This document shows, piece after piece, positions 24,853 to 36,631 of a stretch of 52,806 nt of DNA. A program made the position numbers and the translations under genes. Source of the stretch: an uncultured Candidatus Saccharibacteria bacterium (GTDB lineage: Bacteria > Patescibacteriota > Saccharimonadia > Saccharimonadales > Saccharimonadaceae); the NCBI GenBank assembly GCA_946406315.1, contig CAMJKD010000009.1:1-52806 (forward strand), written 5' to 3'. Below the pieces are notes generated by a model. The model was not told where the DNA came from. It saw only the letters and a list, made by a program, of their open reading frames with translations, and made no database searches. How positions within the stretch are numbered: position 1 is the first letter of the stretch; each line of letters begins with the position of its first letter.

Positions 24853-24984
24853 ATCTGTATTATAACACCAGTGTATAACAGTATCATTGAGCGTGACTCT
24901 AGGAATTATACTCGGCGATTCGCTAAACAATACATAAAACAGATATTTCGCAAAAAACAGAGACCAAAGTGTTATAATTAAATT

Positions 24985-25124
24985 GTCTTAAATCAATTTA
25001 ATAATTTGCACTTAGGCTACAATTCTGCACTTGTGCCGAGTTTTGAATAAAGCCCGTAAATCCGGGAATATTCATCGCTCCGGTTAGGCTGTATTCAGTC
25101 TAAGTGCAGAAATTGATTTAAGAC
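24985..25124 (+). ncRNA. Putative structured RNA, ~140 nt
   Basis: TATAAT at 24973-24978 would start transcription at about 24985. That is exactly where a perfect 15-bp helix begins: GTCTTAAATCAATTT (24985-24999) with AAATTGATTTAAGAC (25110-25124). A second perfect helix nests inside, TGCACTTAG (25007-25015) with CTAAGTGCA (25100-25108), followed by inner hairpins such as CCCG-TAAAT-CCGGG. The rod-like plan with a TSS-proximal closing stem recalls 6S RNA, but no diagnostic sequence is seen. It may equally be the 5' part of a regulatory leader for the downstream genes. Confidence 0.55.
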
Positions 25125-25242
25125 ATCATGCGGTGTTATGTTCCCGGATTCATGATGTAACCGGCAATTTGATTTCGAACAAGGCATCGCAAGATGTCTT
25201 ATTTTCTTTTTGAAGTTGTGGCGCTAAGAGTCAGGAGGCGCC
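25119..25242 (+). promoter_or_regulatory. Attenuator-like switch and masked ribosome site before the methyltransferase
   Basis: TAAGACATC (25119-25127) can pair with GATGTCTTA (25193-25201), which is followed by TTTTCTTTTT: a terminator. The same bases take part in the long helix of the upstream RNA, and ACATCATG (25123-25130) can also pair with CATGATGT (25151-25158). These pairings exclude one another. Further down, GGCGC (25220) and GCGCC (25238) enclose the AGGAGG ribosome site. This architecture would allow control of both termination and translation. Confidence 0.5.
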
Positions 25243-26388
25243 ATAGCACGTGAAAAATTCGCTAATGCCAGTCATAGACAAAAGTATGGCCAATTTTTTT
25301 CGCCAGAAAAGTTAGTTAATAAGTGTATTTCGTTAATAAAAAATAAAAACGGAAGAATACTAGAACCGTCTTGCGGGGACGGTGCTTTTAGTAAAATTCA
25401 GAACAATAACTCGGTATTTATCGAAATAGATGAAACGGTTGTAAAAAATGACAACGTTTTAGTGATGGATTTTTTTGATTATCCTACAGATGAAAAATTT
25501 GACACGATAATTGGAAATCCACCATATGTTGATAACTCATTATTCACGCCGAAACATAAGACTAAGATAAAGGTTCAAGCGAATTTATACCTATTTTTTA
25601 TAGAAAAATGCATTAATCACTTAACTGAGCACGGTGAGCTAATCTTTATCGTTCCTAGAGATTTTATCAAGCTAACATCGGCAAAAGTCGTTAATAGACT
25701 TTTATATAGAAACGGCACCATAACAGACTTTTATGATTATGGCGACGAGAGGTTATTTGACGGGGCTTGTCCGAATATATGCGTCTTTCGTTTCGAAAAA
25801 GGCAATTACACGCGCAAAACTAACACATTTGATGGGATATATATATTCACAGAAAACGACGGTCTAATATCATTCATCGACGAAGACCAAAAAGACAGGC
25901 TAGGCGATTTCTTTGATATTAAAGTCGGAGCAGTTAGCGGTGCTGATAAATACTTCGAAAATGAAAAAGGCGTAGAATTTGTCTATTCAAAAACTCGCGT
26001 TAGTGGTGAATTGAGAAAAATGATTTATCAAAAATACGATAAATCATTAGATAAGTATAAAGACAAACTAATATCGCGGGGGATTAAAAGTTTCGATGAG
26101 AATACGTGGTTTATGTGGGGGCGACCAGTTGATTTTCGCGAAGGGAAACCAAGAATATACGTCAACTGCAAAACAAGGGTAGGTAACCCTTTCTTTATTA
26201 ACAGTTGCGATAGATGGGATGGATCGCTACTGGCATTATTTCCAAAACAGAAAATGAACTTAGAAAAGGCCGTAAACGCGTTGAACCAAATAGATTGGAA
26301 CGCATTGGGTTTTATGACCGGAGGTCGTTATATTTTTGCACAGAAGTCATTATTGGAGGCGCCTATCGATGGAAAGATATTTGGATAG
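25243..26388 (+). CDS. Type II DNA adenine methyltransferase, 381 aa, with ATA start
   Basis: AdoMet-binding motif I is ILEPSCGDGAFS near residue 45 and catalytic motif IV is NPPYVDN near 85, as in N6-adenine methyltransferases. The N-terminus REKFANASHRQKYGQFFSP is typical of this class, yet no ATG, GTG or TTG precedes it in frame. The codon at the expected place, five bases after AGGAGG, is ATA. The next usable start (GTG 25462) would remove motif I. So translation starts at a rare AUA or the start codon was lost by an ATG-to-ATA change. The restriction gene overlaps its end by 20 bases. Confidence 0.8.
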   Translation: MAREKFANASHRQKYGQFFSPEKLVNKCISLIKNKNGRILEPSCGDGAFSKIQNNNSVFIEIDETVVKNDNVLVMDFFDYPTDEKFDTIIGNPPYVDNSLFTPKHKTKIKVQANLYLFFIEKCINHLTEHGELIFIVPRDFIKLTSAKVVNRLLYRNGTITDFYDYGDERLFDGACPNICVFRFEKGNYTRKTNTFDGIYIFTENDGLISFIDEDQKDRLGDFFDIKVGAVSGADKYFENEKGVEFVYSKTRVSGELRKMIYQKYDKSLDKYKDKLISRGIKSFDENTWFMWGRPVDFREGKPRIYVNCKTRVGNPFFINSCDRWDGSLLALFPKQKMNLEKAVNALNQIDWNALGFMTGGRYIFAQKSLLEAPIDGKIFG

Positions 26389-27016
26389 CATCGTTTCTTG
26401 GCTTCAACGAAACCCCGTTGCTCTATCGAACAATGATGCTGATGGTAGAGTAAACTCGGGTGTAAACGAGCATGAAATTTTAGACGCACTTCAAGCATCT
26501 GAATATGGCAGAATTATAGAATTGCCTCCTCCAAGGTGTTGGTATGATTTTGCTATAAAAAATATGTATGGCGAAATATATGTAAACATAAAAGTTTCTG
26601 ACCTAAATAATAGTGCAGCTGATAATTTATCGTCAAAACAAGGGATGGGATATGCATTAACTGGAATTAAAAACATTCCCGACAATTGGAGAGGTTTTAA
26701 TGAAACCATAGCCAATAATATCAGAAATGGCTATGATTATTATTTCCTAGTTGTTAATAAGAATAATGCTAGAGATGTCTTTTGGACGTCATTGAAGCGC
26801 ATCCAGAGATTGCAGCCGAACGGAAATAATTTACCTTTTCAGTGCAACTGGGCAAGCAATAGGGAATGGTCAAATAGGACTGAAGAAGAATCAATAAAGT
26901 ATATATTAAAAATATATCTTGACAGTTGGGACAAGAAAATTAATGGGTATCCAGGAGAAATAAAAGCACTTCTTGATAGGGGGGAGATTCACTCCATGAT
27001 GCACTACGGTCACTGA
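26369..27016 (+). CDS. Type II restriction endonuclease, 215 aa
   Basis: It is placed directly behind and overlapping the methyltransferase, with its own ribosome site (GGAGGC) before ATG 26369. The segment CWYDFAIKN...YVNIKVSD fits the catalytic core of many type II restriction enzymes: Asp in a first strand, then a VNIK strand in place of the classical (D/E)xK. No other domain is seen. Recognition sequence unknown. If the methyltransferase is poorly translated because of its ATA start, expression of this nuclease would be dangerous, so it may be weakly expressed or inactive. Confidence 0.75.
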   Translation: MERYLDSIVSWLQRNPVALSNNDADGRVNSGVNEHEILDALQASEYGRIIELPPPRCWYDFAIKNMYGEIYVNIKVSDLNNSAADNLSSKQGMGYALTGIKNIPDNWRGFNETIANNIRNGYDYYFLVVNKNNARDVFWTSLKRIQRLQPNGNNLPFQCNWASNREWSNRTEEESIKYILKIYLDSWDKKINGYPGEIKALLDRGEIHSMMHYGH

Positions 27017-31414: not shown

Positions 31415-31415
31415 G
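31392..31415 (+). CDS. Second leader micro-ORF overlapping the main start
   Basis: ATG 31392 encodes MQYIGVN; its TAG shares one base with the GTG start (TAGTG). It begins three bases after the first micro-ORF ends. Its GGAG (31403-31406) doubles as the ribosome site of the main gene. Also present unchanged before copy 3. Confidence 0.4.
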   Translation: MQYIGVN

Positions 31416-34400
31416 TGTCTAGTGGAATATTCTCCAGAAAACGCTTAACGCAGGTAGATAGGATTCAGAAAAATATTCGTATTTTTGCAGTGCTCATTTT
31501 GGGCGCTATTTTAAGTTGTATTGTTTTTAAGTCCTTTGCTGAAATTATCGATGATGTCCGTGTTGATGTCGATGCAGATCTTACCTATTACTTAAACGTC
31601 AAAGAAGACGGTATTGATGCTACTGGCATAGAATCTAGTGATGCCCAAATTGCCAATGTACTTGGTGGTAGGGTAAATGTGACAGACAAAATCCCAGAAG
31701 GTCTAGTATTCCAAGGTTTCGTTACTACTTCTGATGGTACAATCGGTGCCGTATCCCGTGCAGATAACTCTATCCAATGTCCAGGTAAAGTCATTGACGA
31801 TACTAATGAAGAAACTGTAGATACTGGTACTTGGAATAATGACCATACAGAATACTACTACCATGGTCTTCACTACAATGCTAATACTCGTACCGTTAGC
31901 TTTTCCGCTGAGAAGATTAAAGCTGGCTGCCAATTAACAGTAGGCATTATTACTAAAACCCCAGCCACCATAGATGATCCAAATACTACTCCCATTGAAA
32001 CTCGTCGAGACTTCTACAACACTGCTTTTGCTGCCGAACGAGGACTAACTGCTACTTCCAATACTGTTCATGCCTTTATTGGCAACTCTAGTGCTACGCT
32101 ATATGACGTTACTTACGCATATGAAGGAAACATCCCAGCTGGTGCACCAACCACTCCTAGTGAAGAATCTTATGCTCAAGATTCCACAGTACCAGTTAAC
32201 GCCAACCCAGTACTTGAAGGTTATACTTTCTCTGGTTGGACTACAACTGATGCTACTGTTACGGACGGAACTTTCCCAATGCCAGGACGTAGAGTACGAT
32301 TAACCGGTATCTGGACGAAGAATCCAGAAGGTACTAAATACAATGTTACCTACGTTATTAATGGCGAAAAACCAGCAGACTTTATGCCACCAGTTCAGAA
32401 GCAATATGAAGCTGGCGTTAGCGTGCCATTAGATTCTACGGAAAAAGATGCTAATATAGATGGCTATAGATTCTCTGGTTGGAGCACATCTGATGCTACA
32501 TTATCTGAAACTGGCTTCATTATGCCAAGTCAAGACGTAACTATTGTTGGTTCATTCCAACGTATTTCGTACAGAGTCTGCTATGCCTTTGAAGGTGCTA
32601 TTATGCCACAAAATGCTAGTTCATTTTTGCCTCAATGTGAAGATCGTTATCCAGGCGATACAGTTACAACAGCCGCTAATCCAGTAGTAGCAGGTTATGA
32701 CTTCCTAGGCTGGTACAAGAATGCAACCTTCACCATGCCAGAAGAAAACGTCACTATCTATGGTGAATGGGCAGAAACTCTTGGCAACTTTGCACCACAG
32801 ATAAGTAAAAGTCTAGTTGATGCTCAGGCAGAATACATCTACGGCGAAACCGTAAAGTTCAAGATTACTGTCCATAACCCAGAATCCTTTGCTATTAAAG
32901 ATGTCTATTTACAAGAAGAACTAGACGGTGCAATCTTTACAGCTTCAGCTAATAACAGTTATGAGCTGAAGACTAATACAATCGCAGTAATTCCAAGTAT
33001 CCCAGCTAATTCTAGCGTCGATGTCTATGCCGAATACAAAGTAACAGAGAACAAAACTCAAACACTCACTAACATCGTAGAGCTAACTGGCGCCTTAGCA
33101 GATGACCATACTTTAGATACTAGCCAAGAATACAAAGCAACCATAGATTTCAATACTGTTCCTGAACCAATACCACTTACGGGCATTATCTTTAATGCTT
33201 TACCATATATTGGTTTAATTGTATTAGGGATTGGCATTATTTTTATACTCATCATATCTTCTCATAAGCTTAAGATACTAAATAGACTAAGCACAATTTC
33301 AAGCCGTATTAATCCGCGCAAGATCTTCAAATACTCGCTCCCATGCTTTGCTATTATTGGCATTCTAATTGGCGCTACAGTAGCTAAGAATGTTGCAGCA
33401 GGGCATTATACCGAAGCCATTAAGTCTGTAGAATTAACATCGCAACACACTAACTATTCTAACAATGAGCCAGGCTCTTGGAATGTAACTAAGAGCGCTA
33501 AATGGATTGAACAGGGTAAAGCAAGAATTACCTTTGATGTAGATACTATAGCCAAAGTAGCAGAAGGCACACATACAGACATTGTAATGGTGCTAGATAA
33601 CTCCGGCTCTATGGATGGAGGCAAAATAACCCAAGTTAAGCATGATGCAACTGAACTCATTGAGAGTGTCTTATCTGACACTAATAATCGTATTGGTTTA
33701 GTGAGCTTCAATTCTACTGCGACTAAACTCAGTAATCTAACCAATGATAAAGATTCATTATTATCCTTAGTGAATCAATTAGAGGCTACTGACAATACTA
33801 ATTATTACAGTGGTTTCCTGAAAGCGGAAGAGGTGCTTGAGGGGTATACCAAACAAGAAGATCGAGAGTTGATTCTATTATTTCTCACTGACGGCTACCC
33901 AAATGAACAAACCCCAAATGAAATCCCTGAATACCAAGCCTTAAAAGCTAAGTATCCATATATGACCATTAATGGTATCCAGTATGAAATGGGTGATGAA
34001 GTCTTAGACCCTATTAAGCAAATCTCAGACAACCAGTTTATTGCTAATATGAATTCCCTAGGCAATGTACTCTTTGAAGCCTCAATTTCATCATATACCT
34101 ATGAGAACTTTACTCTAACGGATTACATCGATGACGAATACTGGGACGTAGATAGCGTAGATGAAATTGAAGTCTCCATTGGTGAAACGAACCTCACCCA
34201 TGAAGGCACAGTACCGGTCGTAACCTGGACTATGAACGAGGCATTAAAATCTGGTCATTCAGCTAGGCTAACCATAGATGTTACATTAAAGAACGCAGAT
34301 GCAATTGAAGAGGGAACTTTCCTACCAACCAATGACCACGAAACAGTCCAAAGCCACTTAGCAGATACGCCAGATGAAAACATCGCAAGCGAACTCACCC

Positions 34401-36631
34401 CAGTCCTAAAATCTAGCTACGAGGTTAGCTACGAACCAAACTTGCCAAGTGGCTGCAGCTCATATGGAGGCACACTGCCAATAGCGCAGAATTATCTACC
34501 GCTCTCGATAGTGGGGGAGTCTAGTAACGTATTAACTTGCGATGGCTATAACTTTGTAGGGTGGGACGTAGCTAGCGGCAATCCAAAGCCAATTAACGAC
34601 GATTACTTCAAGATTCTAGAGGACGACGTAGTACTACGCGCCATCTGGTCTAAAGTTTCCATCTCCAAGAGCATGGATGGGGAGGTAAAGGAAGAGGTAG
34701 TGGCGATTCTAAACACCGGACAGAACATAAACGTGGCATTGAAAAAGCTTTCTGGTCAAACCAGTACAAGTTATTCGACTAATAACACTACCATTACAGC
34801 CGTAAAGCCTGCCTCTACTATGTCTTCTGCGCAACAAGCAAGTGCTTCCACAATCTCTTCATATAATTCTCCGGTACCAATTTATGCCTGGTTTGATAGT
34901 ACCGATGGCGCTATTTATATCTACTCCGAGGCAGATAAGATTAAGGCGGGTACTGCCTTGAGATATTTATTCTACAACTTTAAGAACCTGAACGATATCT
35001 CTGCGCTCGTCAGTTGGGATACTTCTAGTGTTACTAATATGGGCGATATGTTCAGCGGCGCCTCCAGTCTTACGAATATAGATGGTGTAACTAATTGGGA
35101 TACCTCGAATGTTACTAATATGAGCTATATGTTCAGCGGCGCCTCCAGCCTGACGAACATTGATGGCGCCTCTAACTGGAATACTTCGAGTGTTACTACT
35201 ATGCAGTCTATGTTCAGCGGCGCCTCCAGCCTTACGAATGTAGACGCGTTAGCCGACTGGGATACTTCTAGCGTTACTAATATGAGCTATATGTTCTACT
35301 ACGCCTCTAGCCTTGCTAATATAGATGGCGCTTCTAACTGGGATACTTCGAGTGTTACTAATATGAGTCATATGTTTAGTGGAGCCTCTAGTTTGACTAA
35401 TATAGATGGTGCATCTAATTGGAATACTTCTAAAGTAACTGATATGAATGGTATATTCTTCGGCGCAAAAGCCCTGACTGATATAGACGGTGCGTCCGAC
35501 TGGGATACTTCTAAAGTAACTGATATGAGCTATATGTTCTCTGGCGCCTCTAGCCTTGCCAATATAGACGGCGCTTCTAACTGGGATACTTCGAAAGTTA
35601 CTACTATGAGCTGTATGTTCTATGGCGCTTCCAAGCTCACGAATATTGACGGCGCATCGGGTTGGAATACTTCGAGTGTTACTGCTATGCAGTCTATGTT
35701 CAATGGCGCCTCCAGCCTTGCAAACATAGACGGCGCGACTGACTGGGATACTTCAAATGTTACTGATATGACCAGTATGTTCAGTGGCACCTCTAGCCTT
35801 GCTAATATAGATGGCGCTTCTGGTTGGGATACTTCGAAAGTTACTAGTATGGCCTCTATGTTCCGCAACGCCTCTAGCCTGACGGATATTGATTCGCTTA
35901 GTGATTGGGATACTTCGAGTGTTACTAGTATGTATCAGATGTTCTACGACGCGAAAGCTCTCACGAATATAGACGGCGCTTCTGGTTGGGATACTTCTGG
36001 TGTTACTAATATGAGCTCTATGTTCCGCAGCGCCTCCAGCCTTACAAATATAGATGGTGCATCCGGTTGGGATACTTCTGGCGTTACTAATATGAGCTAT
36101 ATGTTCTATGAAACTAAAATTGCCAATATAGATGGCGCATCCGACTGGGATACTTCAAGTGTTACTAATATGAGCTATATGTTCTATGGTGCCTCTAGCC
36201 TTACAGATATTGATGGCGCATCTAACTGGAATACTTCGAAAGTTACTGATATGAGCTTTATGTTCTGGGTTGCCTCCAGCCTTACAAACATAGATGGCGC
36301 ATCCGACTGGGATACTTCAAGTGTTACTAATATGAGCTACATGTTCTATGGTGCCTCTAGCCTCACGAACATAGATGGCGCAACTGATTGGGATACTTCA
36401 AGTGTTACTAATATGAGCTACATGTTCCGTAACAACTCTAGCCTTACGAATATCGACGGCGCATCGGGTTGGGATACTTCTAAAGTTGCTAATACATCCA
36501 ATATGTTCAATGGCTGCAGCAGTATTACCGCATTGAATCCAATCTTTAATTGGGATACGTCAAGCCTTACGAACAAAAGCGATATGTTTAATGGTATTCC
36601 ATCATCCGTAACGCGCCCGGGGTGGTATTAG
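31415..36631 (+). CDS. BspA-like/vWA giant surface protein, copy 2 (complete), 1738 aa
   Basis: Start GTG 31415 behind ATAGGAG. It has an N-terminal membrane segment (about residues 22-43), a beta-rich domain, and four GW-type Listeria/Bacteroides repeats (about 240-460). A DUF11-like domain (about 470-575) follows. Then comes a sorting-like stretch PEPIPLTG with a hydrophobic helix and basic SSHKLK (about 583-622), and a second signal-like helix (about 637-660). The vWA domain comes next (DNSGSM near 727, LTDG near 827), another GW repeat (about 1020-1085), and 20 DUF285/BspA repeats (about 1195-1725). The sequence is most like two surface proteins joined head to tail. Probable role: adhesion. 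It has no outer cell-wall anchor at the C-terminus. Confidence 0.88.
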   Translation: MSSGIFSRKRLTQVDRIQKNIRIFAVLILGAILSCIVFKSFAEIIDDVRVDVDADLTYYLNVKEDGIDATGIESSDAQIANVLGGRVNVTDKIPEGLVFQGFVTTSDGTIGAVSRADNSIQCPGKVIDDTNEETVDTGTWNNDHTEYYYHGLHYNANTRTVSFSAEKIKAGCQLTVGIITKTPATIDDPNTTPIETRRDFYNTAFAAERGLTATSNTVHAFIGNSSATLYDVTYAYEGNIPAGAPTTPSEESYAQDSTVPVNANPVLEGYTFSGWTTTDATVTDGTFPMPGRRVRLTGIWTKNPEGTKYNVTYVINGEKPADFMPPVQKQYEAGVSVPLDSTEKDANIDGYRFSGWSTSDATLSETGFIMPSQDVTIVGSFQRISYRVCYAFEGAIMPQNASSFLPQCEDRYPGDTVTTAANPVVAGYDFLGWYKNATFTMPEENVTIYGEWAETLGNFAPQISKSLVDAQAEYIYGETVKFKITVHNPESFAIKDVYLQEELDGAIFTASANNSYELKTNTIAVIPSIPANSSVDVYAEYKVTENKTQTLTNIVELTGALADDHTLDTSQEYKATIDFNTVPEPIPLTGIIFNALPYIGLIVLGIGIIFILIISSHKLKILNRLSTISSRINPRKIFKYSLPCFAIIGILIGATVAKNVAAGHYTEAIKSVELTSQHTNYSNNEPGSWNVTKSAKWIEQGKARITFDVDTIAKVAEGTHTDIVMVLDNSGSMDGGKITQVKHDATELIESVLSDTNNRIGLVSFNSTATKLSNLTNDKDSLLSLVNQLEATDNTNYYSGFLKAEEVLEGYTKQEDRELILLFLTDGYPNEQTPNEIPEYQALKAKYPYMTINGIQYEMGDEVLDPIKQISDNQFIANMNSLGNVLFEASISSYTYENFTLTDYIDDEYWDVDSVDEIEVSIGETNLTHEGTVPVVTWTMNEALKSGHSARLTIDVTLKNADAIEEGTFLPTNDHETVQSHLADTPDENIASELTPVLKSSYEVSYEPNLPSGCSSYGGTLPIAQNYLPLSIVGESSNVLTCDGYNFVGWDVASGNPKPINDDYFKILEDDVVLRAIWSKVSISKSMDGEVKEEVVAILNTGQNINVALKKLSGQTSTSYSTNNTTITAVKPASTMSSAQQASASTISSYNSPVPIYAWFDSTDGAIYIYSEADKIKAGTALRYLFYNFKNLNDISALVSWDTSSVTNMGDMFSGASSLTNIDGVTNWDTSNVTNMSYMFSGASSLTNIDGASNWNTSSVTTMQSMFSGASSLTNVDALADWDTSSVTNMSYMFYYASSLANIDGASNWDTSSVTNMSHMFSGASSLTNIDGASNWNTSKVTDMNGIFFGAKALTDIDGASDWDTSKVTDMSYMFSGASSLANIDGASNWDTSKVTTMSCMFYGASKLTNIDGASGWNTSSVTAMQSMFNGASSLANIDGATDWDTSNVTDMTSMFSGTSSLANIDGASGWDTSKVTSMASMFRNASSLTDIDSLSDWDTSSVTSMYQMFYDAKALTNIDGASGWDTSGVTNMSSMFRSASSLTNIDGASGWDTSGVTNMSYMFYETKIANIDGASDWDTSSVTNMSYMFYGASSLTDIDGASNWNTSKVTDMSFMFWVASSLTNIDGASDWDTSSVTNMSYMFYGASSLTNIDGATDWDTSSVTNMSYMFRNNSSLTNIDGASGWDTSKVANTSNMFNGCSSITALNPIFNWDTSSLTNKSDMFNGIPSSVTRPGWY
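34996..36575 (+). repeat. 20 tandem BspA/DUF285 coding repeats
   Basis: Same unit as in copy 1 but 20 units. The first three units are identical in DNA to those of copy 1 over about 240 bp, then the order of unit sub-types diverges. The final unit and the SSVTRPGWY end are again conserved. Confidence 0.9.

Follow-up and report, generated by a model that had tools for sequence, protein, structure and literature searches.

Introduction

The timing of restriction-modification (R-M) is known to be controlled by C proteins, by feedback of the methyltransferase and by antisense RNA, and RNA switches that attenuate transcription are likewise a known kind of regulation. In the EcoRI and Eco29kI systems antisense RNAs transcribed from reverse promoters act on R-M expression (PMC3874152). 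At the level of translation, an AUA start codon placed after a strong Shine-Dalgarno (SD) sequence in Staphylococcus lowers initiation but does not abolish it, the yield in S. aureus being about 10-30% of that with AUG (PMC13009471). Neither riboswitch-type control of R-M nor a Saccharibacteria RNA of such kind was found in the open-access literature; an earlier note on this DNA had said that RNA-switch control of R-M genes would be new.

The window analysed here is a stretch of 52,806 nucleotides from a tiny gut Saccharibacterium with a genome of 1.07 Mb. The intergenic stretch between ruvB (reverse strand) and the gene of an Eco57I/TaqI-type methyltransferase contains a TATAAT box, a predicted transcription start at 24985 and a leader extending to 25242; its adjacency to ruvB is incidental. 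We put at roughly 0.7 the probability that this leader belongs to a new family, lineage-wide in Saccharibacteria, of RNA switches that act in cis through a terminator and an antiterminator. The RNA class, the host group, the link to R-M and the coupling to non-AUG starts appear to be new among the sources searchable.

Layout of the leader and of the operon

The features are given below in the order of their coordinates.

24973-24978, + strand: -10 promoter element TATAAT (from the sequence; predicted +1 = G24985)
24985-24999, + strand: P1 helix, 5' strand (15/15 complementarity to 25110-25124)
25007-25015, + strand: P2 helix, 5' strand (copy 1, TGCACTTAG; family P2 permutation z 21.0)
25023-25032, + strand: second copy TTCTGCACTT (alternative partner of 25102-25111; complementary to AAGTGCAGAA)
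25036-25040, + strand: hairpin A, 5' strand (pairs with 25078-25083 with one bulge; local pairing by inspection)
25044-25049, + strand: pseudoknot helix B, 5' strand TGAATA (pairs with 25092-25097)
25059-25068, + strand: antiterminator segment AATCCGGGAA (10/10 complementary to 25141-25150)
25100-25108, + strand: P2 helix, 3' strand (family P2 permutation)
25110-25124, + strand: P1 helix, 3' strand (end common to the T1 remnant and the anti-T2 pairing)
25122-25137, + strand: T1 remnant, GACATC-ATGC-GGTGTT (family terminator here lacking its U tract; aligns to the T1 found in relatives)
25141-25150, + strand: antiterminator partner TTCCCGGATT (pairs with AATCCGGGAA)
25181-25212, + strand: predicted intrinsic terminator T2 (hairpin AAGGCATC-GCAA-GATGTCTT at 25181-25200 with GCAA loop; U tract to 25212)
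25220-25242, + strand: ribosome-site hairpin GGCGC 25220-25224 / GCGCC 25238-25242 (encloses AGGAGG 25233-25238)
25243-26388, + strand: N6-adenine DNA methyltransferase, Eco57I/TaqI type, ATA start (Pfam PF07669, E 5.7e-19)
26372-27016, + strand: putative partner restriction endonuclease, 214 aa (overlaps the methyltransferase by 17 nt)

The earlier note had described a switch-like RNA with a 15-bp helix near the transcription start, and the observation is borne out: 24985-25242 is strongly structured (z about -7.6), and P1 is a perfect helix that begins at the predicted +1. The minimum free energy of 24981-25212 is -80.7 kcal/mol, with z of -7.59 for folding against shuffles, and 0 of 200 shuffles folded as well as the native leader; for the sub-leader 24981-25128 z is -8.08. 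A TATAAT-like box is found at the same spacing upstream of P1 in nearly all homologues.

Helix B joins the loop of hairpin A to a segment 3' of A, forming a pseudoknot; in relatives it reads TGAATACA/TGTATTCA (G014) and TGAAACA/TGTTTCA (G192). Since A and B have a few 5'-side nucleotides in common in many members, they may partly exclude each other. The duplicated TGCACTT gives the 3' strand of P2 two possible 5' partners, with a compensatory change in divergent members; for the second copy TTCTGCACTT the pairing is limited to the window's subgroup and is accompanied by a compensatory change in the relatives L009 and L037. Two further candidates were dropped, namely a leader peptide (short ORF ATGCGGTGT..TAA in the hairpin loop, which has no SD and is missing from divergent members) and, as an independent feature, the pairing of CCGGTTA 25080-25086 with TAACCGG, which is partly lost in G192.

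Homologues and distribution

A BLAST search recovered the leader from other genomes of the genus (85-97% identity), together with divergent copies, and a pattern of its 3' end matched a dozen contigs, nearly all from Saccharibacteria (one match, L030, lies by chance inside an unrelated coding region). The same RNA occurs in metagenome assemblies that bear the title Candidatus Saccharibacteria, and every genome whose title is known was assembled from a metagenome. Three covariance models were built, whose E-values are rough: R1 covers T2 and the ribosome-site hairpin, R2 covers the core, and R3 was made from divergent members with the window's subgroup left out. Within the genus R1 and R2 agree on the loci apart from a few cases, and R2 reached other genera. 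Within the window's taxonomic family R3 matches 92 of 394 genomes, in 25 of 61 genera, and beyond it 7 genomes from other families of the same class; outside the class no homologues were found in a phylum-wide sample. Since R3 recovers the window's leader (E 7e-12) without having been built from its subgroup, the homology is independent of the window. The RNA is present in a minority of genomes, some of which carry several copies.

Rfam 15, which the earlier note had proposed as a check for 6S, riboswitch and housekeeping RNAs, holds no family matching the window's leader at either gathering or permissive thresholds (up to E 10 only a chance miRNA match appeared), and in 40 homologue loci it gave no match within the RNA. 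The 6S model RF00013 (window and 40 homologue loci) and the T-box model (window and homologue loci) gave no match either. As judged from these searches, the RNA is a previously undescribed family found in many Saccharibacteria. At one locus of another genus (L202:2743-2860) a LOOT RNA (RF03000) lies about 1.1 kb 3' of a copy.

Conservation of the core and of the antiterminator

Sequence comparison establishes the helices of the core. When native pairing was set against pairing permuted between RNAs in a set of 56 non-redundant RNAs, z was 23.9 for P1, 21.0 for P2, 20.0 for B and 7.1 for A, under a null that preserves base composition and not phylogeny, so that shared ancestry is reduced (redundancy was cut by a k-mer filter) and not removed. 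G325 was excluded from the statistics for its ambiguous orientation.

T1, typically GACACC-loop-GGTGTC followed by U, lies directly after P1 and has GAC in common with it. The antiterminator segment of the family (typically AAxGGGCACC) lies between the strands of A and is complementary to the 3' arm of T1 and the bases that follow. Its complementarity score is 1373 against 1093 +/- 21 after permutation (z about 13). At offset 1 (the base 3' of the T1 stem against the base 5' of the antiterminator core) 55 of 57 RNAs are paired where 35.9 are expected, through 42 G-C, 8 C-G, 3 T-A and 2 A-T pairs; at offset 3 the figures are 49 of 57 and 26.2. Pooling of four offsets gives 188/228 paired against 136 +/- 5.3, the maximum of 5000 permutations being 154, again under a null that preserves base composition and not phylogeny. 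T1 alone cannot explain this coupling because the coupled bases lie outside its stem. The covariation in homologous loci that the earlier note had asked for is present, permutation tests backing P1, P2, A and B and, as the decisive case, the antiterminator.

A co-directional ORF lies within 60 nt downstream at 50 of the 56 loci with a called ORF, and nearly every copy has a co-directional gene 20-60 nt downstream. Together with the helix permutations, this position indicates a conserved, structured, aptamer-like domain in a 5' leader. A mutually exclusive terminator/antiterminator platform is likewise recognizable, from sequence only, with T1 replaced by T2 in the window. From the covariation of the antiterminator and the co-directional gene just downstream of nearly every copy it is therefore concluded that the family is probably a riboswitch-like orphan, a cis-acting terminator/antiterminator switch.

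Predicted terminators of the window's subgroup

In the subgroup of the window T1 has lost its U tract, and the antiterminator pairing AATCCGGGAA/TTCCCGGATT is kept, with compensatory changes in G014 and L027. Here the partner of the antiterminator segment does not belong to a terminator with a U tract, and so the family mechanism must have been rewired. T1 is likely replaced by T2 as the terminator; the T2 hairpin is kept through the compensatory changes GACATC/GATGTC and GACACC/GGTGTC. The earlier note had taken the pairing of the 3' strand of P1 with about 25193-25201 for the terminator. The complementarity exists (AAGACATC 25120-25127 with GATGTCTT 25193-25200), but its role would be that of the competing, antiterminator form, and the predicted intrinsic terminator is instead the local hairpin 25181-25200 with the U tract to 25212, a hairpin absent from that note. 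The other alternative pairing it had named, to 25151-25158, is found as ACATCATG 25123-25130 with CATGATGT. T2 and the competing pairing of the P1-3'/T1 strand are 0-6 kcal/mol apart in 9 leaders, as calculated by nested folding that ignores pseudoknots.

Ribosome site and start codon

The ribosome site of the methyltransferase (AGGAGG 25233-25238) is enclosed in the GGCGC/GCGCC hairpin, as had been noticed before. In G343 a hairpin TGGTCT/AGACCA occupies the same place; such a hairpin is present at 20 of 44 other loci and was not found to be a family-wide feature.

The methyltransferase frame opens at ATA 25243, a point missing from the earlier note, and contains no ATG, GTG or TTG between the in-frame TAA 25225 and codon 74 at 25462. 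The N-terminus is real, since the PADLOC family model starts at residue 4 of the ATA frame. At methyltransferase loci of two genera 18 AUA and 3 ACG starts were counted, and members with a different ribosome site have about 8 ATG and 2 GTG starts. The predicted non-AUG start is conserved across unrelated methyltransferase families.

Genes downstream of the RNA

The window's methyltransferase has the conserved motifs of a type II R-M enzyme: besides PF07669 it matches TaqI structures (E 2.5e-10), and its residues 4-373 correspond to positions 2-373 of 386 of the PADLOC MTase_II model. The putative endonuclease gave no Pfam, PADLOC or PDB match; its homologue has the same placement beside a homologous methyltransferase in G343 and G099, which include another genus. 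Further downstream (31415-36631) the window encodes a surface protein of 1738 aa; repeats of InlB/BspA type are recognized in it by eye, and it has a VWA-like region and a membrane segment at its N-terminus.

Nearly all copies in the window's genus precede DNA methyltransferases, which are of Eco57I type (PF07669), of EcoRI type (PF13651) followed by a GmrSD/HNH nuclease, or small and followed by an Eco57I-type methyltransferase and a helicase. Such a split system lies at L016:527-5651, with the small methyltransferase, the Eco57I-type one and a helicase resembling a type IIG enzyme. An exception in the genus is the copy of G013, which adjoins an AAA ATPase and helicase pair (L119; an AAA/OLD-type ATPase and a UvrD-like helicase, Gabija-like by eye). 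The pair ends 12 nt upstream of the RNA, whose promoter is therefore inside or beside the helicase gene. Upstream of one EcoRI-type R-M operon bearing the RNA (L021:1761-4674) there are two adjacent serine recombinases.

In other genera the RNA is followed by methyltransferases of N6_N4, C5 and EcoRI type, and also by genes of an OLD-like nuclease, a T4SS pilin, VWA and DUF4352 proteins and small membrane proteins. Among the first downstream ORFs of L165-L223 a small membrane protein of 75-80 aa (MKDRKTYKILT..NRWYLGN) recurs in many genera. Outside the R-M subgroup the genes have no common pathway. Because the RNA also precedes non-restriction genes in other genera, the family is a general Saccharibacteria element recruited by R-M operons. 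The same leader stands before Eco57I-type, EcoRI-type, split Eco57I-type plus helicase and N6_N4 methyltransferases, and before unrelated methyltransferases the sequence diverges directly after the start codon.

Proposed mechanism and alternatives

The earlier idea of a switch-like cis RNA upstream of R-M genes is supported, its interpretation as a whole in part. From the features described above we infer termination itself, its control by a signal, the direction of this control and a benefit for R-M. Transcription would start at P1, and P1 and P2 would enclose hairpin A and pseudoknot helix B as an aptamer-like core. In the family at large T1, which follows P1 and shares its 3' end, would end transcription; alternatively, the 3' arm of T1 and the following bases would pair with the antiterminator segment between the strands of A. 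A ligand or protein acting on the core presumably sets the choice between a stop of RNA polymerase and read-through into the gene. In the window's subgroup, where T1 has no U tract, the pairing 25059-25068/25141-25150 would remain and T2 would compete with the pairing to the P1-3'/T1 strand. Transcripts extending beyond T2 would then meet the ribosome-site hairpin and the AUA (or ACG) start, by which the methyltransferase and the overlapping or close nuclease would be kept at a low, gated level. The R-M operon would be held low by these stacked brakes until the switch opens; it may be conjectured that this helps establishment in a new host or averts self-restriction.

As the regulated genes have no common pathway, a single metabolite feeding back on them is less likely than a global signal. 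It is rather probable that the RNA represents an undescribed riboswitch-like class in the Saccharibacteria (Patescibacteria), responding to a single global signal and gating R-M as well as surface and secretion genes, with obligatory non-AUG initiation in the R-M branch.

The input to a cis switch may also be an RNA-binding protein, a tRNA, another RNA or the ribosome instead of a small molecule, a possibility that we take seriously while rating it below an even chance. The spread of regulated genes (methyltransferases, OLD-like nuclease, T4SS pilin, VWA, DUF4352, small membrane proteins) would suit a global factor, and the extra alternative pairings of copy 1 and copy 2 in the subgroup point the same way; however, no candidate factor came to light, and the conserved pseudoknotted core also resembles metabolite aptamers. 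Static attenuation, in which terminators, ribosome-site hairpin and non-AUG start fix a constant low level with no signal, is unlikely: AUA/ACG starts and stacked terminators would each lower expression, in line with the 10-30% yield of AUA in S. aureus (PMC13009471), but a 140-nt pseudoknotted core and an antiterminator conserved through compensatory changes are needless for such a brake.

A further alternative, which the earlier note had offered in its 6S-like form, is an independent trans-acting sRNA gene served by a promoter and a terminator of its own, the methyltransferase receiving read-through only. Although promoter, closed 5' end and terminator meet the needs of an sRNA gene and T1 follows directly after P1, we consider it quite improbable, given that no Rfam family matches (6S included), that a minority of genomes carry the RNA, some of them more than once, and that almost everywhere a co-directional start codon follows within a few tens of nt (as in nearly all of the 60 distant copies); moreover, covariation of the antiterminator beyond the T1 stem would be purposeless in a plain sRNA. 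A DNA-level feature travelling with the operons, such as a recombination or mobility site or an insertion end, to which the occurrence of one and the same kind of leader before unrelated methyltransferases with divergence directly after the start codon and the serine recombinases near some loci might point, is very improbable in view of the G-U-tolerant pairing, the directional order of promoter, terminator and SD, the presence at genes with no mobility sign, and the lack of any plasmid match and of any complete copy in viral contigs, where exact motifs were searched. In these contigs the exact leader/start pattern and the T1 pattern both gave no match; a 17-nt core motif occurs in 9 of them, yet the full model finds fragments only (E 0.0065 or worse), and therefore no phage copy is claimed.

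If the cis-acting switch is real, a leader RNA common to unrelated methyltransferases would be a new way of gating R-M, and would indicate that ultra-small epibionts, too, use complex RNA regulation. As the family occurs in at least 25 genera, identifying its signal would make regulation accessible in a group for which genetic tools are scarce, and the conserved AUA/ACG start is testable in its own right.

Comparison with known systems

With transcription-terminating and orphan riboswitches the RNA shares the conserved pseudoknotted core, the intrinsic terminator, the cis position before a gene and an antiterminator that is the complement of the terminator's 3' arm and the bases after it. In contrast to known riboswitches it has no sequence or covariance match to Rfam 15; it would regulate R-M and surface genes and not one pathway, and it is here limited to Saccharibacteria. 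The long closed rod and the similar size recall 6S RNA, from which the new RNA differs by the lack of an RF00013 match, by the terminator/antiterminator exchange and by the gene a few tens of nt downstream.

The purpose resembles that of C-protein control, namely the timing and level of methyltransferase and nuclease, but the leader RNA is the candidate for control here. Between ruvB and the methyltransferase no ORF reaches 80 aa. The antisense RNAs of EcoRI and Eco29kI (PMC3874152) also act on R-M gene expression, whereas here the RNA is a cis leader with terminator and antiterminator. Finally, infC, ccpN and cvfC1 of Staphylococcus (PMC13009471) exemplify AUA/AUU starts after a strong SD, and the likeness lies in a conserved AUA that lowers initiation; in the present family, unrelated methyltransferase families and two genera have retained AUA or ACG, and the non-AUG start is coupled to a switch RNA and a ribosome-site hairpin.
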